Source of the DNA: a virus
Virus record (IMG/VR): IMGVR_UViG_3300033154_000080
Location: 1 to 30,521 of that record
Length of the DNA stretch: 30,521 nt
Direction: 5' to 3' (one strand)
This document shows positions 5,833-29,801 of the stretch, in pieces. The translations under genes were made by a program, and so were the position numbers. The notes beneath the pieces are model-generated. The model saw nothing but the letters and a program-made list of their open reading frames with translations, was not told the DNA's origin and made no database searches. Within the stretch, counting starts at the first letter, position 1. The number at the start of each line of letters is the position of its first letter.

Positions 5833-6744
5833 ATGGCCGACGAACCGACAAGTCAACCGACAAGTGACCCGACTGACCCGACAAGTGACCCGACAAGTGA
5901 CCCGACAAGTGACCCGACAACGGCAGCACCGACCCGCGCGGACCGCACGCAGGCAGCCATCGATGCTGTCCACCTGCTGGAGGCTGGCGAGGAGCCACTG
6001 GAGGCCGAAGGGGCAAAGCCGGCCGATGCGACCCCGGCTGCTCCCGATGCGGACGCAGATCCAGCCGAGGGCAAGTCCAAGACCGAGCTGTGGGCTACGA
6101 TCAACGAGCAGAACCGGCGCATGCGCCAGATGGAGGCCGCCGGAAAGGCCAAGGGTATCGGTGAGTACAGCGCCGACCAACTGTACGAGGAGCTGTTCTC
6201 TCGTGACACCCCGGCCGAGGAGGAGGTCCCGGCAGAGTCGGACGAGGAGGAACCGGTATACGTCGCCGAGATCCGAAAGGAACTCAACGAGCTGAAGAGC
6301 GCCCGCCATCAGGAGCGCCAGCAGGCTGACACCAACACCGCCTACCGGGTCATCGACCAGCGCATCGCTGCAGCTCAGGATGGGGACGCAGCCAACCCCT
6401 GGCCGTTTCTGGAGACAGGGAGGTCCGAGGGGAGCTATAATGAGGTCATCCATACCTTTAAGCAGCTCTGGGAGATCGAACAGGCGGAGCCGGAACTGGA
6501 TCGAGTGCTGAATGCGGTTGAACAATCGATCAAAGAGAGGGAGACTACGCGCCGAGGGCGTTATGACGCCCTCTTCAGCGATACCCCGCCGGAGAAGCCA
6601 GCAGCGCGGGCGCCGAGAGCGACAGAATCAAACGGAGAATCTAAAACCATTGGATCGAGAGGGGCGGGAGACACACCGACCCCCGACGATAAACCCCTGA
6701 GCCGTGAGGAGCGCGTGAAGCGCGCAATGGCTCTGGTAGAGTAG
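5833..6744 (+). CDS. Scaffold-like acidic protein with TSDP repeats
   Basis: This 303-residue acidic protein lies between portal and capsid, the usual place for a scaffolding protein that shapes the prohead and leaves before maturation. GGAGG (5821-5825) overlaps the portal stop and drives the ATG at 5833. The N-terminus is a run of T-S-D-P repeats encoded by 12-bp DNA repeats. The middle is helical and charged (around residues 85-200, rich in E, R, Q), suitable for a coiled coil. The C-terminus is basic (R-E-E-R-V-K-R-A), as is typical for capsid-binding ends of scaffolds. Assignment rests on position and composition. Confidence 0.7.
   Translation: MADEPTSQPTSDPTDPTSDPTSDPTSDPTTAAPTRADRTQAAIDAVHLLEAGEEPLEAEGAKPADATPAAPDADADPAEGKSKTELWATINEQNRRMRQMEAAGKAKGIGEYSADQLYEELFSRDTPAEEEVPAESDEEEPVYVAEIRKELNELKSARHQERQQADTNTAYRVIDQRIAAAQDGDAANPWPFLETGRSEGSYNEVIHTFKQLWEIEQAEPELDRVLNAVEQSIKERETTRRGRYDALFSDTPPEKPAARAPRATESNGESKTIGSRGAGDTPTPDDKPLSREERVKRAMALVE
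5848..5916. repeat. 12-bp tandem repeat array inside scaffold gene
   Basis: Units of ACAAGTGACCCG are found at 5860-5871, 5881-5892, 5893-5904 and 5905-5916, with a variant at 5848-5859 and a 9-base shortened copy at 5872-5880. Each unit encodes T-S-D-P. All length differences are multiples of three, so copy-number change would not break the frame. Slippage is the likely origin. Confidence 0.85.
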
Positions 6745-6838: not shown

Positions 6839-8056
6839 ATGACTGTTACCGTTTCTTCACTCGACGCGATCGTCAAGGAACTTTACGACGGTCCAGGGCT
6901 GACCGAGGTCGTCCATGACCCCTCGAGCCGCCCACTCACCGCAGACCTCAAGAAGGACGAATCCTTCGAGGGTGACCTGCTTGCCGTCCCGATCTTCTGG
7001 GGGGAGCAGGGAGGCCGTTCGGCTCTCTTCGACGTCGCCCAGTCGACTCTCGAAGCGACCGAGCTGGGGCAGTTCCAGATCGACGTGGGCGAGAACTATG
7101 GAGTAGCCCGCATCACCAGCAAGGCCATGAAGAAGGCGCGCTCGAACCGTGGCGCTTTCGTGAAGGGCCTGCAGCACACCATCGACGCCAAGGTCAACCA
7201 GGTGGCCAACGATGTAGAGGCCAACCTCTTCCGTTCCAGCTCGGGCGCCATCGCTACGATCGGAACGGGGGGTGTCTCCGGCACCACCATCACGCTGTCC
7301 AAGCCGGCAGAGATTGCCGCGATCGGGAAGAACCAGCACCTGGTGTTCGCTGCGAGCGCCACGGCAACCCCGCGCCAGAGCGGGACCAGCGCGAAGGTGA
7401 CCAGCGTGAACCGGGTGGTCGGCTCGTTTGTCATCGACGCAACCCCGACCAGCACGGCCGCAGCTGACCTGGTCTTCAACAAGGGCGACTACGTTGCCGC
7501 ATCCGACAAGAAGAAGATCTACGGGCTCGAGGACTGGATCCCGGCTGCCGTGGCTGGGGCGACGGCCTTCTTCGGCGTCGACAGGTCCGAGGACACCCGC
7601 CTCCAGGGTCTCTACACCACCGGCTCCACGTCGGACATCGCGGGTTCGATCTACGAGGGTGCGGCGCTGCTCGGTCGCATGGGCAACGCCATCCCCAACC
7701 GCGCATACCTGTCCTTCGACAACTTCCGCAAGCTCAACATCCAGATGGGTGGCAAGGCTGAGCGGGACAAGGAGAGCGGGAGCGCCAAGGCGGGATACAC
7801 CTCGCTGGCGGTCTACGGCCCCAAGGGCTTGATCGAGGTGGTCGCCGCGACCTTCTGCCAGGATACGATCGTCTGGCTGCTGACGATGGACAAGCTCTGT
7901 CTGCTCAGCATGGGTCCTGTCGTCGACATCTTCGAGGATGACGGGATGCGGGTCCAGCGCATCAGCAACGCGGCTGGCGTGGAGGTTCGAGTCGAATCCT
8001 TCGCTCAGCTCTACACCAACATGCCCTGCGGACACTGCCGCATCACGCTTTCGTAA
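6839..8056 (+). CDS. Major capsid protein (HK97-fold type, inferred)
   Basis: This 405-residue protein follows the scaffold and has a strong GGAGG five bases before ATG 6839. Size and order fit an HK97-fold major capsid protein that forms the icosahedral shell. Early residues include L-T-E-V-V and a run of polar and aromatic residues (F-E-G-D-L-L-A-V-P-I-F-W-G). The centre contains an insertion-like Ser/Thr/Ala-rich beta segment (around residues 135-220). The C-terminal third has G-L-I-E-V-V-A-A-T-F and ends with a strand and Cys pair. Both gene ends are flanked by strong potential hairpins. Fold identity is inferred from context. Confidence 0.82.
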   Translation: MTVTVSSLDAIVKELYDGPGLTEVVHDPSSRPLTADLKKDESFEGDLLAVPIFWGEQGGRSALFDVAQSTLEATELGQFQIDVGENYGVARITSKAMKKARSNRGAFVKGLQHTIDAKVNQVANDVEANLFRSSSGAIATIGTGGVSGTTITLSKPAEIAAIGKNQHLVFAASATATPRQSGTSAKVTSVNRVVGSFVIDATPTSTAAADLVFNKGDYVAASDKKKIYGLEDWIPAAVAGATAFFGVDRSEDTRLQGLYTTGSTSDIAGSIYEGAALLGRMGNAIPNRAYLSFDNFRKLNIQMGGKAERDKESGSAKAGYTSLAVYGPKGLIEVVAATFCQDTIVWLLTMDKLCLLSMGPVVDIFEDDGMRVQRISNAAGVEVRVESFAQLYTNMPCGHCRITLS

Positions 8057-8994: not shown

Positions 8995-9897
8995 GTGAAC
9001 CGGCGGGACACAAGGCGGCGCCTGGAGCGCACCGAGAGCGCGCAGGCCGTCGAGCGCGCCATGGACGAGATGGCGACGGAGATGGCACTCCTGGTCGACC
9101 GCCCTCTCGGTCTACCGCAGGGCGCGTTCGTCAGCGACCAGCAGGCCATCCTGAACGACTGCCTCCTGATGGACCCGACCGCTGGAGCCCTCAAGGTCTT
9201 TCTTCCGAGCCTGAAGCGCGAGGACATCGGGAAGGGCCTGAGCGCCGTGATCGCCTCGACGACGGTCAACGAGCTGCAGATTGTCCCGCCGCCTGGCGTG
9301 AAGATCGACGGCATTGCTGGCGTTGCGACAGTCCGTGGCGGGTGGTCGGTGACCCGGCTCGTTTCGATCGGGGAGCGCGACTGGTTCATCGCTCTCGGCA
9401 ACCCGAAGGTGACCATCGACGACGACGGCACGGACACGACCAGGGCTCCATTCGTCGGGGCACATGCCGGGCTCTACGCCTTCGATAACGCCGACGCAAC
9501 GGTCATCGCATCGAGTGGGAAGGACAACAAGGTTCAGTACATCGAGCTTGACGTCCTCGAGCCAAGCCGTGACGCGACGCCCAGCCTGGACGGCTCGGAC
9601 ATTGCGATCGAGGTGGCTGGGACCTATCTCGTCACGGTGAGCATCACCTGCTGGAGCGCATCGGCCAACCAGGAGGTGGGCGTGGGGGTCTGGAAGAACA
9701 ACGGGGCGACGGAGCTGCAGAACATCCACGCCCACCGGTCATTCCAGACAGCGAACAAGACCGGGTCCATCTCCATGTCTGGCCTGGTGGCGCTGGCGGT
9801 GGACGACACGTTGGAGCTGTGGGTGTGGAACGAGACGGCGGGCAACAATGTCGTACTCGGCGATGTCACGATGAGCGCGGTTAGGATTGACGTCTAA
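8995..9897 (+). CDS. Virion protein with C-terminal C1q/TNF-like domain
   Basis: This 300-residue protein starts at GTG 8995 immediately after the preceding stop. The N-terminus is a helical region rich in R, E and A, then a beta-rich middle. Residues about 198-300 follow the C1q/TNF jelly-roll pattern: a G-T-Y-L-V-T-V-S-I strand, V-G-V-G-V-W-K-N-N-G, then S-G-L-V-A-L-A-V-D-D-T-L-E-L-W-V-W-N. Such trimeric domains occur in phage fibres and decoration proteins, where they bind surfaces or sugars. Its stop overlaps the next start by one base. The N-terminal half is of unknown function. Confidence 0.65.
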   Translation: MNRRDTRRRLERTESAQAVERAMDEMATEMALLVDRPLGLPQGAFVSDQQAILNDCLLMDPTAGALKVFLPSLKREDIGKGLSAVIASTTVNELQIVPPPGVKIDGIAGVATVRGGWSVTRLVSIGERDWFIALGNPKVTIDDDGTDTTRAPFVGAHAGLYAFDNADATVIASSGKDNKVQYIELDVLEPSRDATPSLDGSDIAIEVAGTYLVTVSITCWSASANQEVGVGVWKNNGATELQNIHAHRSFQTANKTGSISMSGLVALAVDDTLELWVWNETAGNNVVLGDVTMSAVRIDV

Positions 9898-12800
9898 TGG
9901 CTGTAGGACCCAACGACAGGTTGATCCCGGTCCCCATCGCAGGGCTTGACCTCGGCACGGACCCGAAGATTGTACAGCGCGGGATGCTGAAGGTAGAGAA
10001 CGGCTACTTCCCACGCAAGGGGACGATAGAGAAGCGCAAGGGCCTGGCGTCGCTGACGGGCGCCTACGACAACAATAAGTTCCTGGTGCCATACAAGGAC
10101 AAGCCGCACCTGCTCGGCGTTGACGGGCTCTACACCCCGGACCTCTCGAGCGCTACTGCTGGCGACTTCAATAAGGCTGGCCACCTGCCGCTGATGGACG
10201 TCGGAGTGGAGGAGCTGGCAGCCGCAGCCGGCGGACGTGCCTACTCGCCCGGAATCGTGCAGTTGGACGATGTCGTCTGCGTGACGTTCTTGATCGTCAC
10301 TGACTGGGCAACTGTGGAGGTCGCGCTCCGCGCCGTCACGTACAGCCGCTTGACCGGCGCTGTGCTGGACACCGAGGACATCGTCGCAGCCAGCACCAGT
10401 ACCGAGGTAGAGCAGCGCGCGGTTCCCGTTATCCTGGGCTCCACCATCTTCATCTTCTACTGCAACAACTCCGACGAGCTGTGCTACCGCACCGTGGGCT
10501 CGGATGGCGCAGTGGCCTCCGAGACCGTCACGGCAGGCCTCGCCGGTTCGTCTGACTTTGACGCAGACAATCGCTTTCTCGACGTGTGCGTCTTCGGCGC
10601 GGACTCCGACATCGCCGGTATCTGCTACGCCAACGTCGGAAACGACATGCAGGTGATCACTGTCACCGAGGCCGAGGCCGTCGCCGAAGCCACCCCGATC
10701 ACTGCGACGGCCTGCCAGCGGGTGGGCTGCTTCAGGCAGTCCAATACCGTCTTCTCCGTGCTCTACCACGACACCAACGGTGGAAGTAATGATGGGGTCT
10801 ACGCTCTGGGCTTCGACGCGGACGCCCTGGGCGACTTCTCTACAACCACGTTCAAGGAGTGGGATCCGGCCGCCCATGGGCTCCCGCTCTCTCTGATCGG
10901 GTATGCCACAAGCGACACGACGGCGCGGGTGTTCGTCGACTACACCGGAGGGTCCGGGCACCCCTTCATTGAGCAGGACGACCTGAACACCGCCACCCCC
11001 GCGTTCGGCGGCACGGGCACGCCGGTCAACTTCCGACAGGATATCCTGATCGCCTCCAAGCTCTTCGAGCCGACGTTTGGCGATGCCCAGTTCCTAGTCA
11101 CCTTCATCGGGCACTCGTCCGCCCCCGTCTCAGTGCAGCAGTCCATTTACGCCATCACGACCGGAGAGAGCACGTCCGACATCGGACTGGTCACGGCTTC
11201 GATCCTTCCGACGCGCGCCGGGTGGTTCGCCTACGGTGTAAGCAACGTCCACACTGTCGCCACCGATCAGTGGCTGTCCGCATGCGGACTGTCGCTTCAC
11301 CACACCTCGGACGCGGACATTGAGGGCATCGCCAAGCTCTCCATCTCGGCCGACCCGGACACCCTGGACACAGCAGAGACCCTCAGCGCCCTTGCAATTG
11401 GCTCCGGACTGCCACAGCAGTTCAGCGGCGGGCTGGCAGTTGCAGAGCAGGGCTTTCTGACCTACCCGGAGGGCGTCACTGCGACGGAGCACGGCAGCGG
11501 TACGAGCCTGCCGGCTGGCACTTACGGGTTCAAGGCAACCTACGAGTACTACGTCGAGGGCGTGCGCCACGAGAGCGCGCCGAGTCCTAACATCTCGATC
11601 CCCACCGAGACCGCCAAGGACATCGACGTCGCAGTCCCCACCCTCGGACTCTCCAACAAGGGGACAGCGGACGACCCGATCCAGATCATCATCTGGCGCA
11701 CGGTAGACAACGGTTCCATCTGGTACCGGTGCGGCTCGGCGGACAACGATAAGTCGGCGGACAGGGTGACCGTGCAGGTCACTAACACCCCAAGCGACGA
11801 CACCCTCAGTACGGTTGACCGCCAGGACCCGAGCGAGATTTCCGCCGCCGCCCAGCGCACCCTCTACACGACCGGCGGGGTTCTGGAGCACACGCCTCCG
11901 CATCCATACAGGGTCTCGACGGTCTGGCAAAACCGGCTGTTCTACGTCGACCGCGAGCGCGAGAGCACCACCATCTTCTACTCCAAGGAGTTCATCAAGG
12001 GGGCAGGACTCGCCTTCTCGGACGTGCTGCGCGTCGACTGCACGCACGAGGGCGGGCGCATCTACGCCTTGGCGGTCCTCGACAACCGGCTGCTCATCTT
12101 CAAGGAGCACAGCGTCTACGCCCTACAGGGCGCCCCACTGGACGACAGAGCCATCACAGGCGGATTCACCAAGCCGTACCTGCTCAGCTCGACCATCGGG
12201 TGCTCGGAGCCCAGGACGCTGGTGCACTTCCCCGGCGGCCTCGCCTTCATGGGACCAGACGGCCTGTTCGCCATCGGCCACGACGCCAACCCGGTCTACA
12301 TCGGACAGTCGGTCCGACACCTGACCGAGGTGGACGCCCTGACCATCACCGCCGCCTTCGTCTCCCCGCCGGAAAGCTCGATCATCTGGCTCTCGAGCGA
12401 AGGCACCGCGTTGATCTACAACTACCGATACAACCTCTGGTCGACGTACAGCGACCATGGGGCGGTCTCCGGGTGCTACTGCAACGGGGTCTACTACCTC
12501 AAGAACAGCGAATCGGCAGGCGAGGCCCCGGTGGACGCCAGCACGATTGTACTGTATCGATGCGATGAAACGGGGGCGGGAGACGACCTGATCGACGCCA
12601 CGGACAACGGCTGGACCGGAGTGGCCACAGGCAACCCCAAGACTGCCGCCCCCATCACCGGCAAGATCGGCGGGGCCAGGGCGGTCACTACCGCCGGAGC
12701 TATCTTCTGGACGAGGGCGCACGATGCCTCGGTGGTGCCGCTGACGTTCACCATCGCAGGGTGGATCCGCCTCAAGGGCTCCAACAACTATCCCACATGG

Positions 12801-13676
12801 TTCTTCGGGAAGAAGAAGGGCTCCACGAGCTTCACGCTCCAGGGCGGCTTCGTCTACGTCGACAGCCAGATGCGCGCCTCCATGCAGATCTCGGAGGTAG
12901 GAGAGGGCAGCCAGACGTACTTCGAAGGCACTACGACGGTGACCCGGAACGTCTGGCACTATGTTGGCTATACGTTCGACGGCGCGGTCGGCAAGGTCTA
13001 CCTGGACGGCGCGCTCGAGACGTTGCACGTCGACCGCAACAGCATCCAGGGTGGTGGCGTCTTGGCCTATCTCGCCGGCTACAACTGGGAGGCTGGCAAC
13101 TACGTGATGTGGACCCAGGGCGAAGAGTACGACATGGACGAGGTCTACTTCTCGTCCGACGTCAAGGATCTAGCCTGGATGTCCAAGCGCGCAGTCGCCA
13201 CGGTGCCTTCCACGGTGCGCGCCCTGGCTCGCTCGACAGCCCTGGACGGTACCTCGGACATCAAGCAGACCGTCGAGACGGGCACGCTGTCCTTCGCTGG
13301 GCTCGGCGGCTGGGGCAGGGTGAAGCGTGTCCTGCTCATCGGCCAGGCCCGCGCCGGGCACACCCTCCGGGTCAAGGTGGCCTACAACCGGGAAACGCTC
13401 TGGACGGACAACGAGACCTACGACACGACCTCGGCGGACCTGCTTGACAGTAAGTGGGCGGACATCGCTGAGCACTACTCGATGGACAGCGATAGCGACC
13501 GGGCCGACAAGACGTTTGCCATCTGGGTCACGCTGTCGCGCACCAAGGCAAGCGCTGTGAGGCTGCAGATCTCGGACGAGGACAGCGTCGGGGCAGGGTT
13601 CAGTTTGACAGCAATGGCCTTCTTGGTATCGCCGGAGCACGGCGCCGAGAAGGTTGGATTGACGAGGGCTAGCTGA
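9897..13676 (+). CDS. Large tail protein, P22 gp10-like, with inserted LamG domain
   Basis: This 1259-residue protein likely forms or plugs the tail tube below the adaptor. The opening segment (V-P-I-A-G-L-D-L-G-T-D-P, then Y-F-P-R-K-G-T-I-E-K-R-K-G-L) and the beta-propeller-like core (for example R-L-F-Y-V-D-R-E-R and G-P-D-G-L-F-A-I) resemble P22 gp10-type stabilisation proteins. Around residues 882-1095 a concanavalin/LamG-like domain appears (F-T-I-A-G-W-I-R, W-H-Y-V-G-Y-T-F-D-G, V-Y-L-D-G-A). After it the C-terminal domain resumes with W-G-R-V-K-R-V-L-L-I-G. The insert looks like a spliced-in carbohydrate-binding module. Confidence 0.68.
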   Translation: MAVGPNDRLIPVPIAGLDLGTDPKIVQRGMLKVENGYFPRKGTIEKRKGLASLTGAYDNNKFLVPYKDKPHLLGVDGLYTPDLSSATAGDFNKAGHLPLMDVGVEELAAAAGGRAYSPGIVQLDDVVCVTFLIVTDWATVEVALRAVTYSRLTGAVLDTEDIVAASTSTEVEQRAVPVILGSTIFIFYCNNSDELCYRTVGSDGAVASETVTAGLAGSSDFDADNRFLDVCVFGADSDIAGICYANVGNDMQVITVTEAEAVAEATPITATACQRVGCFRQSNTVFSVLYHDTNGGSNDGVYALGFDADALGDFSTTTFKEWDPAAHGLPLSLIGYATSDTTARVFVDYTGGSGHPFIEQDDLNTATPAFGGTGTPVNFRQDILIASKLFEPTFGDAQFLVTFIGHSSAPVSVQQSIYAITTGESTSDIGLVTASILPTRAGWFAYGVSNVHTVATDQWLSACGLSLHHTSDADIEGIAKLSISADPDTLDTAETLSALAIGSGLPQQFSGGLAVAEQGFLTYPEGVTATEHGSGTSLPAGTYGFKATYEYYVEGVRHESAPSPNISIPTETAKDIDVAVPTLGLSNKGTADDPIQIIIWRTVDNGSIWYRCGSADNDKSADRVTVQVTNTPSDDTLSTVDRQDPSEISAAAQRTLYTTGGVLEHTPPHPYRVSTVWQNRLFYVDRERESTTIFYSKEFIKGAGLAFSDVLRVDCTHEGGRIYALAVLDNRLLIFKEHSVYALQGAPLDDRAITGGFTKPYLLSSTIGCSEPRTLVHFPGGLAFMGPDGLFAIGHDANPVYIGQSVRHLTEVDALTITAAFVSPPESSIIWLSSEGTALIYNYRYNLWSTYSDHGAVSGCYCNGVYYLKNSESAGEAPVDASTIVLYRCDETGAGDDLIDATDNGWTGVATGNPKTAAPITGKIGGARAVTTAGAIFWTRAHDASVVPLTFTIAGWIRLKGSNNYPTWFFGKKKGSTSFTLQGGFVYVDSQMRASMQISEVGEGSQTYFEGTTTVTRNVWHYVGYTFDGAVGKVYLDGALETLHVDRNSIQGGGVLAYLAGYNWEAGNYVMWTQGEEYDMDEVYFSSDVKDLAWMSKRAVATVPSTVRALARSTALDGTSDIKQTVETGTLSFAGLGGWGRVKRVLLIGQARAGHTLRVKVAYNRETLWTDNETYDTTSADLLDSKWADIAEHYSMDSDSDRADKTFAIWVTLSRTKASAVRLQISDEDSVGAGFSLTAMAFLVSPEHGAEKVGLTRAS

Positions 13677-20339: not shown

Positions 20340-21125
20340 ATGCGGGGGTATACCAGGGGCAACCGTGGGTTCAACGTCGGGCTCCCGGGGTACGATGTTG
20401 GCAACCGTGGGTTTACCCCGCAGGACGCCACCCCGGTGCTCCCTACCCTCATCCGAGGGAAGGCCCCGACGATGCGCTACCACGCAAAGGACGCTGGCGC
20501 AGGTGGCTGGGCCGCAGCTGACTACGGATCCGATTTGTCGCTGGTGTCGGCCGGCAGCGCCCCGACCTACAACAACGGTTCGGCCTTCACCGCGCCGGGG
20601 GCTGATGATTCAGTGAAGGGCAACGCCGGGAAGTGCTATGAGCGCACTGGCGACCCGACCTATGGTCAGCCCGGGACCGACGACTTCTGGGATAAGCTGA
20701 TCCTCCAGTACGTCTCGGAGACCACGCTCCTTATCAGTCAGCGCGAGGACGCCAACGAGTACTGGGAGTACGTCATGCTCCCGACCGGAGTTGAGCTGCG
20801 TATAGTCGGGATCAACTCCGTTGCGCTTGCGACCGGGGCCCTGGTTGCTGGCACCTGGTACGTCATCGACATCGTCTTCGACCACTCCGGCTCTGCGCGG
20901 ATATACCTCAACGGGCGGGCGAAGCAGACGACCAGTGTCAGTTCGCCGGCCGTCCTGCCCTGTGTCCCAAATATCGACATGGCTATCTTGGCCCGGTCCG
21001 ACCCATACGCAGCACCAACCAATGGCAGCATCGCCTACTACGCGAGGTGGCAGGGCGCCGGATGGCTGACGTCTGCGGACCAGGACAGCCTCGTCCTGCA
21101 GCACTACAACGACCTGATAGGGTGA
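20340..21125 (+). CDS. Fibre module protein B with LamG-like fold, copy 1
   Basis: This 261-residue protein has a Gly/Arg/Tyr-rich N-terminus (R-G-Y-T-R-G-N-R-G-F, then G-Y-D-V-G-N-R-G-F) encoded partly by a 14-bp DNA repeat at 20358-20371 and 20400-20413. The rest follows the concanavalin/LamG pattern: W-Y-V-I-D-I-V-F-D-H-S-G-S-A-R-I-Y-L-N-G and a final W-L-T-S-A-D-Q-D-S-L-V-L-Q-H-Y-N. It matches the protein at 21976-22824 along its length, so they are paralogs. LamG-like folds usually bind carbohydrate, so host-surface binding is inferred. Confidence 0.7.
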   Translation: MRGYTRGNRGFNVGLPGYDVGNRGFTPQDATPVLPTLIRGKAPTMRYHAKDAGAGGWAAADYGSDLSLVSAGSAPTYNNGSAFTAPGADDSVKGNAGKCYERTGDPTYGQPGTDDFWDKLILQYVSETTLLISQREDANEYWEYVMLPTGVELRIVGINSVALATGALVAGTWYVIDIVFDHSGSARIYLNGRAKQTTSVSSPAVLPCVPNIDMAILARSDPYAAPTNGSIAYYARWQGAGWLTSADQDSLVLQHYNDLIG

Positions 21126-21568: not shown

Positions 21569-21979
21569 ATGAGCGTACTGGGAGACATCCTCGAGAGGCT
21601 GAAGGAAAGCGTTGGTAAGATTGCAAAGGCGGAAGAGTGGGGCTACCGGGAGCAGGAGCACTACGACGAGGAAGACCCGCCTGGGTTGATCGGAACGGTG
21701 AGGGTGGCAACGTTCCGCGCGCGCTTCAGGCTGACCGACGTGCCCGACGACGCCACGGCTGCAGCCGCCTCGCTGCCCAAGGGCGTCAGGGTGCAGTTCA
21801 AGCCGAAGACATGGGGCATGATCACGGACGTTGACAGCGGCAGCGCGCTGACCCAGCTCCGGACGATGATCACGAAGGTGGCAGACGCCATCGCAGCTGC
21901 GGAGGTTGCCGCTCTGGACTCGCGGCGCATCCAGTGCCTCGGCTGGCTCGAGGCCGAGGACGGGGCTGAACTGCCGTGA
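21569..21979 (+). CDS. Unknown protein between the duplicated modules
   Basis: This 136-residue protein starts at ATG 21569, immediately after the stop at 21565-21567; an upstream in-frame start at 21539 lies inside the previous gene and lacks a ribosome binding site. The N-terminus is a charged helix (D-I-L-E-R-L-K-E-S-V-G-K-I), then a V-R-V-A-T-F-R-A-R-F-R strand and an Ala-rich helix. There is no copy of it in the first module. It may be a small connector or chaperone for the neighbouring fibre proteins, by context only. Its stop overlaps the next GTG start. Confidence 0.65.
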   Translation: MSVLGDILERLKESVGKIAKAEEWGYREQEHYDEEDPPGLIGTVRVATFRARFRLTDVPDDATAAAASLPKGVRVQFKPKTWGMITDVDSGSALTQLRTMITKVADAIAAAEVAALDSRRIQCLGWLEAEDGAELP

Positions 21980-22824
21980 GCTACCGGGTCTACGGTGAGC
22001 AGGGCTACCGGGTGCCTCGGCAGAACGGGGGGTACAGGAAAGGTCCGGGGCAGGGGTACCAGCGTGGTAGTGCTGCCGCAGCAGCTCCGCCGTTCGAGGG
22101 TGGCATCCCCGAGACCATCCTGGGGGTGACGCCTTATGCTCGATACTACGGCGCCGACGCCACCCTCGCCGGCTGGCCTGCTGCTGACTACGGCGAGGAC
22201 CTGACGTATTGGGACCAAACTCCGGGCGATGCACCCACCACAGGGGTCGAAGGCCTGTACGAGTACGCCGACGGTGTCAATGAGGGAGTGACAATCAACT
22301 CCAACCCTAGTTATCAGGCCGACACATACAGGCACACAGGCGACCAGACATATTGGGCCTTCGGAGATGACGATATCTGGCTCAAGCTGATTTGGAAGGT
22401 GGACACCAGCCTCAGCGGGCTTCGGTACATCATCAGCAAGCGAGTGGCTGCGGCCGGGTTCTCAATGCACCAGTACCATGCTCCAAGCGACTACATGTTC
22501 ATCCACTGCGGGGGGACTCAGGCAGTAATCTACGAGGCAGACGGCTACATCAACGGCGCCTGGATCGTCGTTGATTTCGTTTATGACAATGGCGCTAAGT
22601 CGCGGACTTACCTTAACAGTGCGGTGCACACTGCAGCAGGGAATGCCAACCGCGGCACCCTGGGCGACGCTTCTGACCTTGTCATTGGCGCCAACCAGGC
22701 TGGTGGCGCTGCCATCACTGGCACCTTCGCCTTCCTCGGCATCTGGAGAGCAGCCGCTGGCTGGCTAGCATCCCACGACCAAGACACCCTTGTCGCTGCT
22801 CACTACGCGCAGCTAATCGGATAG
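21976..22824 (+). CDS. Fibre module protein B with LamG-like fold, copy 2
   Basis: This 282-residue protein starts at GTG 21976. Its N-terminus again is Gly/Tyr/Arg/Gln-rich (Y-G-E-Q-G-Y-R-V-P-R-Q-N-G-G-Y-R-K-G), and the remaining residues align with copy 1: R-Y-Y-G-A-D, A-A-D-Y-G-E-D-L, W-I-V-V-D-F-V-Y-D-N-G, R-T-Y-L-N-S, and W-L-A-S-H-D-Q-D-T-L-V. A LamG-like carbohydrate-binding role is inferred. The copies differ most in exposed loops, which would fit different receptor targets. Confidence 0.7.
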   Translation: MSYRVYGEQGYRVPRQNGGYRKGPGQGYQRGSAAAAAPPFEGGIPETILGVTPYARYYGADATLAGWPAADYGEDLTYWDQTPGDAPTTGVEGLYEYADGVNEGVTINSNPSYQADTYRHTGDQTYWAFGDDDIWLKLIWKVDTSLSGLRYIISKRVAAAGFSMHQYHAPSDYMFIHCGGTQAVIYEADGYINGAWIVVDFVYDNGAKSRTYLNSAVHTAAGNANRGTLGDASDLVIGANQAGGAAITGTFAFLGIWRAAAGWLASHDQDTLVAAHYAQLIG

Positions 22825-23712: not shown

Positions 23713-24210
23713 ATGGCACTCGTCAACACTGTACAGAGATGGCTCAAGCAGCTCTTCATCGGCCCGGACCCGGCGGACGGTAGCTACAGCACGGACCTGC
23801 TCCGGATGTTCCAGGGCTGCGTAGAGGGCCCCCAGCTGGCCCTGGAGAGCAACGGAGCAGCGGCCACGGCGACCACCTACTTCTGGAAGGCCCGGACCAA
23901 TATCACCATCAAGAGCGCCCACCTGGTGCCCAGTGATGCCGGGGTTCAGAACGCAACCAACTTCTGCGACTACTTCCTCCAGACCGCTGCCGGGGCTGGC
24001 GGAGCGCTGACCAACGTCGGCACCGTCAGCACCAACGCGACGCTGGCCAACGGCAACATGGCTGCGGGCATCCCCTACGCGCTGACGCTGACGGCGGCAA
24101 GCGTGGACTTGGATGCTGGCGGTGTGATGGCGTACCAGGTTACGAAGACCGGAGCGGGTGGCCTGGCGATTCCGGCGCACAAGATGGTAGTGCACTACGA
24201 GGAGCGCTAG
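23713..24210 (+). CDS. Putative virion decoration protein
   Basis: This 165-residue protein is the last plus-strand gene before the convergence point. After a helical start (residues 3-16) it is beta-rich and dense in Ala, Thr, Gly and Asn (R-T-N-I-T-I-K-S-A-H-L-V-P-S-D-A-G, L-T-L-T-A-A-S-V-D-L-D-A-G-G-V), which is typical of small phage surface or decoration domains. No signal peptide is present. A head decoration or fibre-tip role is inferred from composition and position. Its TAG stop shares bases with the convergent endolysin stop. Confidence 0.55.
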   Translation: MALVNTVQRWLKQLFIGPDPADGSYSTDLLRMFQGCVEGPQLALESNGAAATATTYFWKARTNITIKSAHLVPSDAGVQNATNFCDYFLQTAAGAGGALTNVGTVSTNATLANGNMAAGIPYALTLTAASVDLDAGGVMAYQVTKTGAGGLAIPAHKMVVHYEER

Positions 24211-24950
24211 GTCCTGCAGGGGATGAAGTGGACCAGGCTACTATCCCGCGACTTCGCCGTACCTAGCAGCATCGCCTCCCAGCTGAACCTCGGCGTCACC
24301 CTGTGGGCGCCGGGGTCCCAACCTCCACCCGCATCGTCACGCCACCAAGGGCACACGTCCTCGTGCCCGAGCACCCCGACCCTGTTGTGCGGGATGCCGT
24401 GCCGGGTGCAGATGTCCAGCACGAGCTTGTAGCCGTTGACGTACTGCGCCTCGGTCAGCAGGAACTGACCACCCCACTGCACGAACTCGATGGAGACGCT
24501 GTTGTGGTTCGGTGACTTCGCGCCATGGGGCAGCAGGTCTAGCGGGTGGTCGAAGGTCACGGGGTCATAGAATGACTTCTCAGCTAGCCCCATGTTCAGG
24601 TCGACGTCGGCCCACGCCTCGGTCCACCAGCGCGGCGGTGGCATGCGCTTGTCCATGATCTTACGGTAGGTGCCCTTCCGGTAGCCCTGCGCCCAGGAGC
24701 GCATATCCTCACTGCCGTGGCACCTGACGTTGCCCCACGGGTCCATGCTGTAGGTGCTGAACACATCGCTGCCGGGCCTCTCGAACAAGATCCGACCCAG
24801 CCGGTCCAGTACGTCCTCGCCTCGGCGTTCGGCGTTCCGGAACGTCTGCCTGCCGGTGATGTGCAGGTAGACCCGGTCAACCTTCCTTTGAAACGTCGTT
24901 GACCTCGGCGTGCTCGTCACCGTCACAAACGGGAGCTTGCTGCAAATCAT
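24207..24950 (-). CDS. Endolysin, zinc amidase of the Amidase_2 type
   Basis: This 247-residue enzyme likely cuts the bond between N-acetylmuramate and L-alanine in peptidoglycan. Motif order fits Amidase_2: first zinc ligand H30 (V-Y-L-H-I-T-G), central N-S-V-S-I-E-F (150-156), then G-H196-E-D-V and W-D212-P-G, giving the H/H/D ligand set. The segment between H30 and N150 is longer than in short family members. No signal peptide is visible, so a holin would be needed. The start at 24950 has GGAG upstream and overlaps the previous gene by 74 bases. Substrate bond is inferred from the family. Confidence 0.75.
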   Translation of the reverse strand: MICSKLPFVTVTSTPRSTTFQRKVDRVYLHITGRQTFRNAERRGEDVLDRLGRILFERPGSDVFSTYSMDPWGNVRCHGSEDMRSWAQGYRKGTYRKIMDKRMPPPRWWTEAWADVDLNMGLAEKSFYDPVTFDHPLDLLPHGAKSPNHNSVSIEFVQWGGQFLLTEAQYVNGYKLVLDICTRHGIPHNRVGVLGHEDVCPWWRDDAGGGWDPGAHRVTPRFSWEAMLLGTAKSRDSSLVHFIPCRT

Positions 24951-25119
24951 CTATCCACTCCATGTCGTAGTTGAGCTTCGCTCTGTTAAATTCCCACCTG
25001 GAAGCGAAGAAGGCCACGGCTTGCATACCGGTCCACCTCACGACGTAGGCCCCGTCGTCGCAGCAGACCCCCTCGGCCGCTACGCGGCCACTGATGTGTC
25101 TCAGGTTGAAGCGGCGCAT
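24877..25119 (-). CDS. Unknown small protein
   Basis: This 80-residue protein starts at ATG 25119, inside the end of the radical SAM gene (25101), and ends inside the endolysin gene. An upstream in-frame start at 25203 is deep in the radical SAM gene and is less likely. The segment S-G-R-V-A-A-E-G-V with Y-V-V-R-W-T-G and W-E-F resembles a recurring small phage protein of unknown function. Two adjacent Cys (V-C-C-D-D) are present, and the C-terminus is acidic. No function is assigned. Confidence 0.55.
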   Translation of the reverse strand: MRRFNLRHISGRVAAEGVCCDDGAYVVRWTGMQAVAFFASRWEFNRAKLNYDMEWIDDLQQAPVCDGDEHAEVNDVSKEG

Positions 25120-26069
25120 CGCCGTGCCAGGAAGTGGTTGATCGCTGCACCGTATGGCGGGCATGTAGGAACCCGGCACTCCGGCCGGTACCCTCGAATC
25201 CATATCTGCTGGAACGATGCCGCCAGAGCATCACCGATCCAACCACCCGACGGTGACGTGTGGTGGTCGCAGAGGTAAACCCCCCCGTCCGACCCGATAG
25301 TGCCCAGGAAGTGTTGGAAGCGGCAGCCATCCTCCGACCGCCACTCGTGGGTCTCCCTGTGGACGACCCAGATCTTGAACTTCTCGTCCTGGAGGGCGTC
25401 CCTTACTCTGCATATCTCAACCAGCTCCCCGGTCCCATCCGGTGGTGGGCTGGCGATGTCAAACTTCACCCGGAGCGAGTCGGCCCCAGCCATCTTGGCC
25501 AGCCTGGCGCACTCGTAGACTTCGAGCGGCTTGTCCGGTACCACCACATACCCCACGTTGATCTTGAGCTTGCTGCCCCGGTTGTTCCTGATGTCATTGA
25601 GCCCGGAGATGTTGTCCAGTGCCTGCATGGAGTACTGGCTGACATGCACGTACTCGATGCGTGACAGCACGTCCCAGGTCTCCCCGTCCATCAGCGTGCC
25701 GTTCGTGAACAGGCCCACTTCGAGCCCTGCCTTGGTCAGGTCTCGCATGGCCAGCAGCGTTGCGTACTTCTTCATCAGCGGCTCTCCGACGAACCCGGAG
25801 AACTTCACCCGGGAGATACCGAGCCCCCCTATCTCGCAGTCGATCAACCCCCTTGTGATCAACGATATGTTCCCGACGTTGATCTTGTTTGGCAGCTTGA
25901 GGGTGCTCAGCCGCTTCCCGATGCACCACGAACAGTCAAGGTTGCAGCTGCTAGACATCTGGATCTCCACCTCGTATGGAGGGAAGGGCTGGCCCAGCAT
26001 GTAGGCATCAAGGTAGGGCTTCTGCCCCGCAAGGAACAGGCGCTCGTAGTCGTTCAAGGAGTCTTGCAC
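25101..26069 (-). CDS. Radical SAM enzyme with SPASM-like C-terminus
   Basis: This 322-residue protein starts at GTG 26069 with GGAGG six bases upstream and overlaps the end of the dehydrogenase gene. C42-N-L-D-C46-S-W-C49 is the radical SAM C-x3-C-x2-C cluster motif, and G95-E-P matches the SAM-binding G-E-P position. Near the C-terminus, C249, C267, C298 and C303 could hold an auxiliary iron-sulfur cluster, as in SPASM or twitch enzymes, some of which dehydrogenate amino-sugars or modify peptides. No peptide precursor is visible nearby. Substrate unknown; sugar chemistry is inferred from neighbours. Confidence 0.8.
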   Translation of the reverse strand: MQDSLNDYERLFLAGQKPYLDAYMLGQPFPPYEVEIQMSSSCNLDCSWCIGKRLSTLKLPNKINVGNISLITRGLIDCEIGGLGISRVKFSGFVGEPLMKKYATLLAMRDLTKAGLEVGLFTNGTLMDGETWDVLSRIEYVHVSQYSMQALDNISGLNDIRNNRGSKLKINVGYVVVPDKPLEVYECARLAKMAGADSLRVKFDIASPPPDGTGELVEICRVRDALQDEKFKIWVVHRETHEWRSEDGCRFQHFLGTIGSDGGVYLCDHHTSPSGGWIGDALAASFQQIWIRGYRPECRVPTCPPYGAAINHFLARRCAAST

Positions 26070-27040
26070 GGCGGCCTCCGTGGGTTGTTGGCTGCTCGGG
26101 CAGGGTCGGCGTCGGAGTACTCCCGGCAGCCGGCAGGGAAGTCAGCTGCGAGCACCCCAAGTCTATCGCAGATATTCCAGATGGGAGGGTGATCCTCCCG
26201 AGCATGGAAGTCCAGTGGTGCACCGAGCATGGAGCAGACCTCGGTGCACCTCTCCTGCACCCACTGCACGCCACGTGGGTCTGCGCAGTCGGTCTCCTTT
26301 ACCTGCATGTTCCAGTTCAGCACCCCGTCGAGGTACCAGGCGACCGCGAGACCGTGCGGGATGCCGTGCTCCGCGGTCCATTGGTAGCTCATCCCGTGGG
26401 CCAGCGTGGTGCCGGCGATGGCGATGGCTCGGCCGGACAGGTTGGCAGCGTGCATCATGGCTCGCCGGAAGTCGGTGTCGGGGCGTCGGACCGACATGAT
26501 GAGGTTCTCCACGCACAACCCGATGCACTCCCGGCTGTAGCACCTCGACTCCGCCGTGCTCTGGATCGACCAGAGCGACTCGATGCCCTGGCAGAGCGCG
26601 TCAAGCCCGCTCGCAGCCGCGACCTCCTGCGGCATGGTCATGGTCAGCTCGGGGTCCAGAACGGCGTAGTCGGCCTCCTCGCAAGCCACGGACTCCTTCA
26701 CGCCGTCTCGGTAGACCGTGGCGAACGGGGTCATCTCCGCCCCGGAGCCGGCGGTGGTAGGGGCGACGATGAGCGGGACGTTCGTGTCGCGATGCAGGAG
26801 CTTCGCAACATCCATCGCACTCCCACCACCGACGCCGACCACAGCATCATAGTGCGTCTCGATCTTGCCACGCTTGACGAGGCTGGCTGGTGGGTTGGGA
26901 GCAACCTGGAAGTGACAGTCCACCGGGATGTCCAGGCCCACCCGTGCGTCCAGCCCCGTCACCAGGAGCACCTTCTCCGCCCCCATCTCCCGCACCAGCT
27001 CCTCGATCACCCGGACCGACCCGTGGAGTACCTTGGTCAT
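26054..27040 (-). CDS. Iron-type alcohol dehydrogenase, phosphonoacetaldehyde reductase-like
   Basis: This 328-residue protein starts at ATG 27040, overlapping the previous stop (TGATG). It has the group III dehydrogenase nucleotide motif G-G-G-S-x-x-D-V-A-K (71-80), P-T-T-A-G-S-G (95-101), and metal positions D147, H215 and H229, with Gln151 where a His is common. The pattern D-A-L-C-Q-x-I-E-S-x-W-S-x-x-S-T and G-I-P-H-G resembles, from memory, phosphonoacetaldehyde reductases, which reduce phosphonoacetaldehyde to 2-hydroxyethylphosphonate. No PEP mutase was seen in the window, so another aldehyde is possible. It is shorter than typical family members of about 380 residues. Confidence 0.72.
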   Translation of the reverse strand: MTKVLHGSVRVIEELVREMGAEKVLLVTGLDARVGLDIPVDCHFQVAPNPPASLVKRGKIETHYDAVVGVGGGSAMDVAKLLHRDTNVPLIVAPTTAGSGAEMTPFATVYRDGVKESVACEEADYAVLDPELTMTMPQEVAAASGLDALCQGIESLWSIQSTAESRCYSRECIGLCVENLIMSVRRPDTDFRRAMMHAANLSGRAIAIAGTTLAHGMSYQWTAEHGIPHGLAVAWYLDGVLNWNMQVKETDCADPRGVQWVQERCTEVCSMLGAPLDFHAREDHPPIWNICDRLGVLAADFPAGCREYSDADPARAANNPRRPPCKTP

Positions 27041-27915
27041 CAGAAGCCCCAGTCCGCATAGCGTGTGCCCAGCATGTCCAGCGCGCCCTTGACAGCCTTC
27101 TCGATGCTGACTGTGACGCGGTTCCGCCACCACTTCGCAGCAGCAGCAGCCTGCGCATCACGCTCGTCGTCGGACAGCTCGACCGTCGTCATGAGCAGGT
27201 CCACTAGGTCCTCGTAGCGCGCCGACGGCACGGGGCACCCAGGCCACATCTTCCGGTACATCTCAGAGTCCTCGATCACCGACAGGCTGCCGTTGCTGAG
27301 CAGGTACCCACACCTCATCGGGTTGAACATGTCGTAGTCGTAGAAGAGGGGGTAGGGCAGGACCTTGGACATCGCAGCGATGCGGTCTCGATGCTTGCCC
27401 CACATCCCGTTGCCTGAGTTCTCTACATGCTTGCCGTACCTCTCCAGCTGCCCAAGGATGAGCGCGCGACGTGGGCTCATCGCTCCGACGAAGAAAAAAT
27501 CCACGGGCTTCTTGGCCTGCTGCTCGTACCTCTCCCACACCGGATGGTACTCGATCGGAGCGTGTATTGACTGGATGCCCTCCGCCGCCAGCTGCCAGTA
27601 GTTGCTCTCGAACGGGGTCCAGATGGCAGCCTGCTCACGCCACCAGTCCATCGCCTCGGCGCGCTCGCACTGCCGACCGAAGAGCCTGTCGTCCCCGATG
27701 ACCTCGGAGATCACCACGATGCGTGGCTTCGTGATCTGCTTGTCCTGGCTGCGGTCCCAGCCCATGAACAGCGGCACCCCCTTGTCGGGCCAGCCGTGAC
27801 GGTAGATGGTGCTCTCGATGCCAGCCGAGATGAGATGTGCATGGATCAGGTCCCGGTAGTCCTCCAAGGACCTCATCCTGCCACCGTAGCTGTACTGCAC
27901 GATGTCAAGTCTCAT
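27040..27915 (-). CDS. Putative GT-B-like glycosyltransferase
   Basis: This 291-residue protein has an N-terminal start V-Q-Y-S-Y-G-G and a C-terminal half with F-F-V-G-A-M-S-P-R-R, Y-L-L-S-N-G-S-L-S-V-I-E-D-S-E, then a repeated acidic/helical tail (E-L-S-D-D-E-R-D-A-Q-A-A-A-A). The pattern resembles CgeB-like or family 1 glycosyltransferase C-terminal domains, where the nucleotide-sugar donor binds. Motifs are loose, so the fold call is moderate. It is translationally coupled on both sides (ATGA with the nucleotidyltransferase, TGATG with the dehydrogenase), implying joint expression. Confidence 0.5.
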   Translation of the reverse strand: MRLDIVQYSYGGRMRSLEDYRDLIHAHLISAGIESTIYRHGWPDKGVPLFMGWDRSQDKQITKPRIVVISEVIGDDRLFGRQCERAEAMDWWREQAAIWTPFESNYWQLAAEGIQSIHAPIEYHPVWERYEQQAKKPVDFFFVGAMSPRRALILGQLERYGKHVENSGNGMWGKHRDRIAAMSKVLPYPLFYDYDMFNPMRCGYLLSNGSLSVIEDSEMYRKMWPGCPVPSARYEDLVDLLMTTVELSDDERDAQAAAAAKWWRNRVTVSIEKAVKGALDMLGTRYADWGF

Positions 27916-28640
27916 CCCTCACCCCCTACCCAGCGCCGCGCCCGTTGCTTGCGCCAGGTGACGAGTTGCTCCCACTCGTCGAAGTCCTCGGTCCAGTCCT
28001 CCCACTCCACCCACGTCGGGCAAAATCCGATGGCGTGGACGTTGAGCGGGACCCCGACGATGGAGCGGTAGACTTGCCATGGAGAGCCGACCATCCATGA
28101 CGGACGCCCAGGGCCTACGGGATCTGCGAGCGCATCGTCGAGCGCCTCCTCCATCCCGTCGCGCAGTAGCTGATACTTCTGCTGTGCGCAGGTGATAGAC
28201 CACACCTCGCCAGCCCCGCTACCAGTCAGCCCGCTACCGCTCTGCCTCCCGAAGAACCGGATCACTTCCTGATCGGCGAGGGCTTCCATGCGGTCGAACA
28301 GGTCGTCGGAGTACCAGACGTCACCGAGCAGGACCAGCAGGCAGCCCTCGTCAGGCCACAGGTCTTGCGATGCGTTCAGCGACTCGACCCAGGACTTGCA
28401 TCCCTCGTGGTCCTCCTTGATCTCCACCGACTGGACGAAGTTGTGCTCGACGATGGGGTCGTTGTGGTTGACCAGCAGCACCGGCTTGATCCCGCGCTCG
28501 ATGCACTGCCGGATGATCCTGTCCAGCAGGACCTCGTCGTTCTCGTCAGGCTCGGGGGTGCAGAGCTGCTTGCGGATCCCTCCGCTCTCCTCCTTGAACC
28601 GCGTACCCCTGCCGCCTGCTGTGATCAGTGCGGTTTTCAC
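27912..28640 (-). CDS. Nucleotidyltransferase (NTP-transferase type)
   Basis: This 242-residue enzyme starts at GTG 28640 with GGGAGGTG upstream and overlaps its neighbour by GTGA. An upstream in-frame ATG (28718) lies inside the glycosyltransferase gene and encodes a basic tail, so it is rejected. Residues 5-14 (L-I-T-A-G-G-R-G-T-R) form the nucleotide-binding loop, K24 matches the conserved Lys, and L-L-G-D107 matches a metal-binding Asp. The family makes nucleotide-activated sugars or alcohols such as CDP-choline. The activated group is unknown; a sugar phosphate or a phosphonate are both consistent with the neighbours. Confidence 0.72.
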   Translation of the reverse strand: MKTALITAGGRGTRFKEESGGIRKQLCTPEPDENDEVLLDRIIRQCIERGIKPVLLVNHNDPIVEHNFVQSVEIKEDHEGCKSWVESLNASQDLWPDEGCLLVLLGDVWYSDDLFDRMEALADQEVIRFFGRQSGSGLTGSGAGEVWSITCAQQKYQLLRDGMEEALDDALADPVGPGRPSWMVGSPWQVYRSIVGVPLNVHAIGFCPTWVEWEDWTEDFDEWEQLVTWRKQRARRWVGGEG

Positions 28641-29311
28641 AATGCACCTCCCTGGCTGTACGGGTGGGCGTCGATGGCGGTGAAGATTGCCTTCCCGACG
28701 TGCCCCGTCACCGGCCACAGGCTGGCGAAGACCCTACCGAGCTTGTACATGTCGCGGTAGTAGCGCTGGATAGCCCAGTCCTCTTGCAGCTCCTCGAGTC
28801 CGATCGACTTGTCGGGGTTGAGGACGTGGATCGGGTGGAAGAACGGGTGGTATCCGTGCCCCGTCATCGGTACGTGGTTGGACAGCGCGATGAACACCTC
28901 CCTACTGTAGGCGACCATGGCCCCGCCGAGGTAGCAGTGCTCCGGCAGCTCAACGACCTGCTTGGTAGCCAGCTCCCACTTGCCGGGTGGCAGCCTCCCG
29001 CCGAAGCCCCGGCCGTTGCACTTCTTGCTGACAAGGGCGCCGACGATGGCGCTCCGCTGGTAGGCCTCGAGTGCCAGGTAGTCGAGGTCACCCTGCCGGA
29101 AGAGCACGTCGTGATCGAGCTGGATCATAACGTCCTTCCCGGTAGCTAGGAAATTCATGGCACTACGAGCACGGGCCCGGTTGACCGCGGCGTCGGGCGG
29201 CTCCCAGGTGGTGCTCCAGTCGTATCTTGAACGGTCCCGTTCGACGTTGATTGCCTCGACGACTCCGTGGTGGAGCCCGCCGTAGCAGAGGACTGACAGG
29301 TGTGGTCTCAT
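28637..29311 (-). CDS. GT-A-type glycosyltransferase
   Basis: This 224-residue protein starts at ATG 29311 with GAG upstream and overlaps its neighbour by ATGA. The N-terminal strand (L-S-V-L-C-Y-G-G) precedes an R-A-R-A-R-S-A helix, then I-Q-L-D68-H-D70-V-L-F, the position of a GT-A metal-binding D-x-D. Further hits include L-G-G-A-M-V-A-Y-S-R and F-F-H-P-I-H, and E-D-W after the acceptor region, typical of GT2-like folds. It is small, with no membrane segment. Donor and acceptor unknown. Likely acts on a product of the nucleotidyltransferase next door. Confidence 0.62.
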   Translation of the reverse strand: MRPHLSVLCYGGLHHGVVEAINVERDRSRYDWSTTWEPPDAAVNRARARSAMNFLATGKDVMIQLDHDVLFRQGDLDYLALEAYQRSAIVGALVSKKCNGRGFGGRLPPGKWELATKQVVELPEHCYLGGAMVAYSREVFIALSNHVPMTGHGYHPFFHPIHVLNPDKSIGLEELQEDWAIQRYYRDMYKLGRVFASLWPVTGHVGKAIFTAIDAHPYSQGGAL

Positions 29312-29757
29312 GAGTCTCCTCGTTTCGCTAGTCGGTCGTAGAGGACCACGTTAACCGTGGCCGCCAGGTTCAAGCATCCGATCGTCGGCACCCGCACCAC
29401 GTGTTGGCATGACGTCAGCACGTCATCTCCAAGGCTGCCGTCCTCGGGGCCGAAGATGTACAGCGCCCGGTGGGGGTGGACGAAGTGGTGGAGTTGAACA
29501 TCCCCCGTAACCTCGATGGCGATTGCTTGGCAGCTGTGGGGGACCAGGTCATGCAGCCGATCCACCGTGATTAGCGGGCTGCCTCTGCCATAGCGGTGCA
29601 CATCGGTCGGGATGCCACCGAGCCTGACGGACTTACCCCACCGGGGCCCCTCCATGGCCACGAATGCAGCGCCGAAGCAATGTGCAGCCCGGAGTACCCC
29701 GCCCACGTTGATCGGGTTCTTCGGGTGGTACAACCCGACCGCTGAGTACCCACGCAT
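29308..29757 (-). CDS. TrmL-like SPOUT RNA methyltransferase
   Basis: This 149-residue protein starts at ATG 29757 after GAGGGAGGG; the longer frame upstream overlaps the next gene and is rejected. The trefoil-knot motifs are all present: N14-P-I-N17-V-G-G-V-L-R23, F-G-P-E-D-G-S-L-G (102-110) and V-P-T-I-G-C-L-N-L-A-A-T-V-N-V (123-137). Length and order match TrmL, which puts a 2'-O-methyl group on the tRNA wobble base. The usual S-L-N-V-S of motif 3 reads C-L-N-L-A here. A host or phage RNA target is inferred. No tRNA gene is in the window. Confidence 0.8.
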   Translation of the reverse strand: MRGYSAVGLYHPKNPINVGGVLRAAHCFGAAFVAMEGPRWGKSVRLGGIPTDVHRYGRGSPLITVDRLHDLVPHSCQAIAIEVTGDVQLHHFVHPHRALYIFGPEDGSLGDDVLTSCQHVVRVPTIGCLNLAATVNVVLYDRLAKRGDS

Positions 29758-29801
29758 TAACCCTCCCTCGTGACGCTGTAAGGCGTCCTGGTTTTCGGGG
29801 T

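Follow-up and report, generated by a model that had tools for sequence, protein, structure and literature searches.

What would a phage do with five enzyme genes that overlap one another by a few bases and adjoin its lysis gene? The IMG/VR record IMGVR_UViG_3300033154_000080, from an uncultured, short-tailed-like phage, raises this question. The window analyzed here is the entire record, 30,521 bases long; no end repeats were reported for it, suggesting that it is probably a fragment. The original prediction had placed five overlapping minus-strand open reading frames (ORFs) at 25101-29311, and our analysis bore out both these coordinates and the successive overlaps of 4, 4, 1 and 16 bases. 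In 5' to 3' order, the genes are:

28637-29311, minus strand: GT-A-type glycosyltransferase (GT), 224 aa, ATG start, with a QLDHDV (DxD-like) motif
27912-28640, minus strand: nucleotidyltransferase, 242 aa, GTG start, overlapping the GT-A gene by 4 bases (GTGA)
27040-27915, minus strand: GT-B-like (Glyco_trans_1_2/CgeB-like) probable glycosyltransferase, 291 aa, ATG start, overlap of 4 (ATGA)
26054-27040, minus strand: iron-containing alcohol dehydrogenase (Fe-ADH), 328 aa, ATG start, overlap of 1 (TGATG)
25101-26069, minus strand: radical SAM (S-adenosylmethionine) enzyme, 322 aa, GTG start, overlap of 16

This gene run was observed directly, and on balance we read it as one co-transcribed phage cassette for glycan decoration. 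Glycan modification of some kind is very probable, while the virion as acceptor is our tentative choice, held with slightly less than even confidence. We infer the joint function, the order of steps, the substrate and the acceptor as follows. The nucleotidyltransferase would activate a sugar, or an alcohol-phosphate or alcohol-phosphonate building block, derived from a host precursor; the Fe-ADH and the radical SAM enzyme would reduce or oxidize this block, or tailor the sugar once attached; and the GT-A and GT-B enzymes would transfer the product, for which structural proteins of the phage are the likeliest acceptors, followed by glycans of the host surface.

The chain of overlaps continues upstream, where a SpoU methylase gene (29763-29308) overlaps the GT-A gene by 4 bases, and downstream, where the radical SAM gene shares 19 bases with an 80-aa ORF that starts at 25119; because it runs on at both sides, overlap does not delimit the cassette. 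Overlaps of 1 to 4 bases also occur among several plus-strand structural genes (at 3941, 9897, 13676, 17195 and 23088). Overlapping genes thus characterize the genome in general; they make co-transcription probable but mark no special unit.

The dehydrogenase and its kinship to phosphonoacetaldehyde reductases

The most specific clue to the chemistry, missed by the original prediction, is the kinship of the Fe-ADH to phosphonoacetaldehyde reductases (PnARs). The protein matches PF00465 above the Pfam cut-off (5.6e-19), and its best NCBIfam model is TIGR03405 (PsrA, Phn_Fe-ADH; 4.6e-40), although at 137.5 bits it falls short of the curated cut-off of 423.7 and is not filed as a member. Its best plasmid match by E-value is the reductase of a Segatella copri aepX-aepY capsule cluster (144 bits, 6e-36; 34-37%), the remaining plasmid matches, among those listed, reaching at most 135 bits and 8e-27 at best. 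Aligned with members linked to phosphoenolpyruvate (PEP) mutase, the phage protein keeps 58 of 70 PnAR-conserved columns and 10 of 14 family-specific positions not found in three generic Fe-ADHs. The residues kept include Y110, C150, Q151, W157, S161, R256 and R315, the position of Q151 being histidine in the generic enzymes. In a midpoint-rooted tree, the Fe-ADH and the PnARs split from generic Fe-ADHs with support of about 95/93. Membership of the PnAR family is therefore well supported by sequence comparison; the phage enzyme forms a long branch outside all other PnARs, so it may represent a sister family.

To place the enzyme among cellular homologs, we scanned GTDB genomes with patterns built from the window Fe-ADH, which itself carries them, and the S. 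copri reductase. The 80 loci returned span archaea, Planctomycetes, Verrucomicrobia, Bacteroidales, Clostridia and others. PEP mutase lies near the reductase in 69 of these loci and phosphonopyruvate decarboxylase in 71, counts that are biased towards the PnAR family because the patterns came from those two sequences. Five planctomycete or verrucomicrobial relatives with the same key residues (L123, L132, L134, L173 and L185) come from genomes in which no PEP mutase scored above the cut-off, these being metagenome-assembled and possibly incomplete; the family is therefore not tied to the PEP mutase pathway without exception. The Fe-ADHs of L132, L134, L173 and L185 possibly act on another aldehyde. 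In L123 (2-3228), by inspection, the planctomycete PnAR-type gene directly follows what looks like a phosphonoacetate hydrolase, together with an aldehyde dehydrogenase, a setting that apparently resembles phosphonate catabolism, not synthesis.

Some candidate relatives were set aside. Most Fe-ADH matches in the phages collection lay on UNVERIFIED contigs from wastewater or faeces that resemble bacterial DNA, and the matches served only as an outgroup, and L196 was a weak match (26%) with PEP mutase and decarboxylase absent nearby. Single-protein IMG/VR scans with the Fe-ADH, nucleotidyltransferase, radical SAM enzyme and terminase returned no relatives, so at that sensitivity the collection contains no phage closely related to this one.

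This kinship raises the possibility of a phosphonate substrate, a special case of glycan decoration that does not exclude it. Here the phage would make or divert a phosphonate (2-hydroxyethylphosphonate): the Fe-ADH would reduce phosphonoacetaldehyde and the nucleotidyltransferase would make a CMP-phosphonate, which would then be put on a glycan, with PEP mutase and decarboxylase supplied by the host or encoded elsewhere in the phage genome, beyond the record. A TIGR02320 search found no PEP mutase in the 30.5 kb record, so despite the kinship of the Fe-ADH a phosphonate product is possible only. The long branch of the phage enzyme, the five key-residue-sharing relatives in genomes with no detected PEP mutase, and a nucleotidyltransferase that resembles PntC-type enzymes at superfamily level only all speak against it. 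On the other side stand the PnAR columns and family-specific positions kept by the Fe-ADH, the PEP mutase and decarboxylase genes beside most of its nearest cellular relatives, and the catabolism-like neighborhood of the L123 reductase. Precedent exists for the activation step: bacterial phosphonate pathways rely predominantly on nucleotidyl activation, and CMP-2-hydroxyethylphosphonate is made by Fom1 (PMC6697681). Taken together, we consider a phosphonate substrate unlikely, though worth weighing.

A second viral contig adds to the case for it. G001 (IMGVR_UViG_3300025127_006784; L197, 7752-10720) carries genes for three such enzymes within a glycan cluster of GTs and NeuA/NeuB-like and RmlC/D-like genes: a PEP mutase with a fused cytidylyltransferase (399 bits, the cut-off being 320), a phosphonopyruvate decarboxylase divided between two frames, and a PnAR-type Fe-ADH. 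It is myovirus-like, with an SLT baseplate-hub protein, a PhoH-like protein and further genes that read on inspection as baseplate-type. Among 50 records checked, it alone besides the window carries a PnAR-type dehydrogenase, and it was the sole IMG/VR match in a broader scan for the PnAR family. G001 thus apparently carries a phage-borne phosphonate set, which lends weight to the view that phages can encode phosphonate chemistry for use on glycans. We found no earlier report of a phage PEP mutase (pepM) in the literature searched, which is not proof of absence. In its boldest form, which we regard as speculative and rather improbable, the proposal is that the phage puts nucleotide-activated 2-hydroxyethylphosphonate or a related carbon-phosphorus compound on its own particle or the host surface, using its own reductase, nucleotidyltransferase, radical SAM enzyme and two GTs, and that, given a second, unrelated myovirus contig, such phosphonoglycan building would be general among phages.

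The other four enzymes and their relatives

The Pfam scan of window proteins gave no direct match for either GT, and the GT-A protein had no significant PHROG match. Structure prediction of the GTs, which the original prediction had proposed, was informative for one of them. The AlphaFold model of the GT-A protein (pLDDT 64.7, pTM 0.72) matches solved glycosyltransferases: its best Foldseek match is STIV A197 from an archaeal virus (E 1.1e-7), followed by collagen galactosyltransferases, mimivirus R655/R699 and the PBCV-1 capsid GT, and a glycosyltransferase fold is confirmed for this predicted structure. A homolog of the protein occurs in Rhodobacteraceae phage LS06-2018-MD06 (30%). The model of the GT-B-like protein (pLDDT 49) was too poor for a fold search. 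Its sequence matches a relative, L103:2946-3779 (phmmer, 4.1e-5), which in turn matches PF13524 at 1.4e-7; hhalign against phage CgeB-like GTs gave E 2e-5 for the pair and 0.015 for the single sequence. The product of 27040-27915 is thus probably a GT-B glycosyltransferase. The GT of phage Yara was considered as a homolog, and pairwise homology was undetectable.

The nucleotidyltransferase matches NTP_transf_3 slightly below the Pfam cut-off (5e-5), an assignment supported by its homologs, and phrog_33187 at 1.1e-12. The family-invariant residues G10, W95, D107, E145, D215, D219 and D221 are all present, and the conserved GD, E and D-x-T-x-D-x-D motifs are kept, which places it in the widespread phage nucleotidyltransferase family of the phrog_33187/Yara gp29 type. 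For PntC-type enzymes, tried as a closer identification, the similarity did not go beyond the superfamily, and sequence searches of solved structures with this protein and the radical SAM enzyme gave superfamily-level or spurious matches only. From its 148 viral relatives we took 80 for a neighborhood survey, reduced to 42 representatives at 80% identity. A GT-like gene lies within five genes in 15 of these 42 loci; the commonest is CgeB-like and mostly directly upstream (in five loci). Other neighbors include FkbM methyltransferase, PhyH dioxygenase and polysaccharide deacetylase.

The radical SAM enzyme matches PF04055 at 9e-6, slightly below the Pfam cut-off and supported by homologs, and SPASM at 0.043. 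The cysteines of its CNLDCSWC cluster motif (C42, C46 and C49) and C249, C267 and C303 are invariant across four homologs. The C-terminal cysteines are SPASM/twitch-like; the position where the relatives have their fourth ligand cysteine lacks one here, and C298 may substitute for it. The best match comes from a glycan cluster on a Streptomyces plasmid (30-32%), and relatives from 397 actinobacterial genomes score below it against the window protein. Both this plasmid and a Solidesulfovibrio plasmid carry their radical SAM genes in sugar-nucleotide clusters. Among viruses we found 22 relatives, plus podovirus ctQWt234 and one 735-kb phage. On the IMG/VR contigs, the neighbors of these viral relatives are GT2 GTs, methyltransferases, RmlD, DegT, carbamoyltransferase and UDP-sugar dehydrogenase.

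With the fold or family of four enzymes directly observed, the original assignments stood for the GT-A (by fold), the nucleotidyltransferase, the Fe-ADH and the radical SAM enzyme, whereas the GT-B assignment was reached only through L103. The search for the same gene order in other phages, likewise proposed at the outset, did not recover the full set; parts of it, as sub-combinations, do recur with GTs in phage glycan loci, an observation made directly in the genomes. The five genes could instead be unrelated accessory genes brought together by chance, with no joint pathway. Such an accident would suit a set whose exact composition is unique among the sequences searched and whose nearest relatives differ for each gene, but four of the five genes independently belong to families of phage or bacterial glycan loci and the genes are translationally chained, making it improbable.

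Candidate acceptors of the glycan and the surrounding genes

Virion proteins are favored as the acceptor because the cassettes of relatives lie inside head/tail modules: the wider flanks of the viral radical SAM relatives are rich in genes for major head protein, head protease, portal and tape measure. In the window the cassette is placed off the structural strand, so the virion argument rests on these relatives. As the original prediction stated, the cassette lies between nuclease and RNA-modification genes and an endolysin; the minus-strand order is exonuclease fragment, small ORFs, SpoU methylase, the five cassette genes, the 80-aa ORF and amidase endolysin. Profile scans of window proteins located the head/tail module on the plus strand. 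The features around the cassette are:

Plus strand: terminase (phrog_2, 3.4e-20)
Plus strand: portal protein (weak SU10/podovirus-type matches)
6839-8056, plus strand: major head (capsid) protein
9897-13676, plus strand: 1259-aa tail protein with an internal LamG domain
Plus strand: S74 chaperone-bearing protein
20340-21125 and 21976-22824, plus strand: two related LamG-domain proteins, each beside a small protein
Minus strand: exonuclease fragment (phrog_298, 5e-8)
29308-29763, minus strand: SpoU-type RNA 2'-O-methylase (PF00588, 6.8e-14, above the Pfam cut-off)
24207-24950, minus strand: N-acetylmuramoyl-L-alanine amidase endolysin (PF01510, 1.9e-13), at the downstream end of the same-strand run

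The SpoU-type methylase, upstream of the cassette, is probably outside its glycan function. The LamG domains of the two related proteins and the 1259-aa protein are possible glycan-binding decorations of the virion. Separately, a scaffold-like protein on the plus strand has an N-terminal run of TSDPT-type repeats at 5833-5930 (PT disordered repeat, weak).

The original prediction had proposed two other targets. In the first, the cassette would modify host cell-surface glycans during infection or lysogeny, for superinfection exclusion or receptor change. The closest cellular relatives of the Fe-ADH and the radical SAM enzyme do lie in capsule or surface-glycan clusters, and the cassette is outside the structural operon; however, it contains no membrane-bound GT, flippase or O-antigen-type transmembrane protein, no integrase or repressor was seen in the window, and virion genes flank the cassettes of relatives. 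We regard this target as a serious but unlikely one. In the second, the enzymes would build a sugar or alcohol and link it to modified bases in the phage DNA. Known pathways of DNA hypermodification do include GTs and radical SAM enzymes, and an exonuclease and an RNA methylase adjoin the cassette. Among the window proteins scanned, with much of the replication region outside the record, none was seen to be a thymidylate-synthase-like hydroxymethylase, deoxynucleoside monophosphate kinase, TET/JBP or pyrophosphorylase-type protein, and relatives of the cassette genes sit with protein or surface glycan genes. Our analysis yielded no positive evidence for DNA hypermodification, which appears highly improbable, while the GT-A fold, the GT-B link and the occurrence of relatives among GTs upheld the glycan part of the prediction. 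Virion decoration, absent from that prediction, fits better than either of its targets.

Several observations weigh against a glycan-decoration cassette. The GT-B call is indirect, via L103; no obvious GT neighbors the nucleotidyltransferase in 27 of the 42 representative loci; and the same five genes were found in no other phage searched. The cassette is opposite in strand to the structural genes and adjoins nuclease and lysis genes. Finally, the window contains no sugar-nucleotide dehydratase, epimerase or aminotransferase, so the pathway would rely on precursors from the host or on genes that lie beyond the record.

That phages encode glycosylation is established, but little of it is understood, and the host is mostly presumed to supply the building blocks. 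A phage that itself supplied enzymes for activation and redox tailoring, including a phosphonate-type one, would make its own glycan chemistry. Bacteria use enzymes of the dehydrogenase's family to make carbon-phosphorus (phosphonate) decorations; in a phage glycan these would be new, if confirmed. A protective role against viruses and grazers has been proposed for bacterial surface phosphonoglycans (PMC8931226); phages with such chemistry would be a direct counterpart.

Comparison with known systems

Phage glycosylation cassettes are already known, and this five-gene set, which combines a dehydrogenase of the PnAR family with a radical SAM enzyme, was not found elsewhere. The fosfomycin pathway combines comparable activities, with FomC as a PnAR-type reductase and Fom3 as a radical SAM enzyme that is a B12 methylase. 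The window differs in its SPASM/twitch-like radical SAM enzyme, its lack of a PEP mutase and the presence of GTs. A parallel based on nucleotidyltransferase, Fe-ADH and radical SAM enzyme was weighed as the leading explanation but ranked lower, since the record has no PEP mutase and its radical SAM enzyme is not of the B12 type. The shared nucleotidyltransferase step is represented there by Fom1, a cytidylyltransferase/PEP mutase (PMC6697681).

The bacterial aepX-aepY-PnAR capsule clusters (for example S. copri plasmid, L011) share with the window an Fe-ADH of the same family with the DALCQGIES motif and a nucleotidyltransferase domain in the pathway. They encode PEP mutase and phosphonopyruvate decarboxylase, unlike the window, and no radical SAM enzyme of this type.

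Podovirus ctQWt234 (MW202801) carries, between major capsid and tail genes, the order radical SAM - GT - PhyH - methyltransferase - NodB - GT. It resembles the window in having a homologous radical SAM enzyme (23-24%) followed by GTs in a podovirus, and differs in its other tailoring enzymes, in GTs that show no detectable homology and in the location between capsid and tail genes. In Streptomyces phages Yara and Rooney, a putative GT - nucleotidyltransferase - methyltransferase cassette lies a few kb downstream of the endolysin. The likeness consists of a homologous nucleotidyltransferase (25% over 218 aa), an adjoining GT and the proximity to the endolysin, whereas Fe-ADH and radical SAM genes are replaced there by a methyltransferase. 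To our knowledge, virion glycosylation in actinobacteriophages has been described in terms of GTs, with neither a phosphonate-type dehydrogenase nor a radical SAM enzyme. The window resembles these phages in that, according to PMC11256854, which cites Freeman et al. 2023, their phage-encoded GTs are taken to glycosylate the capsid.

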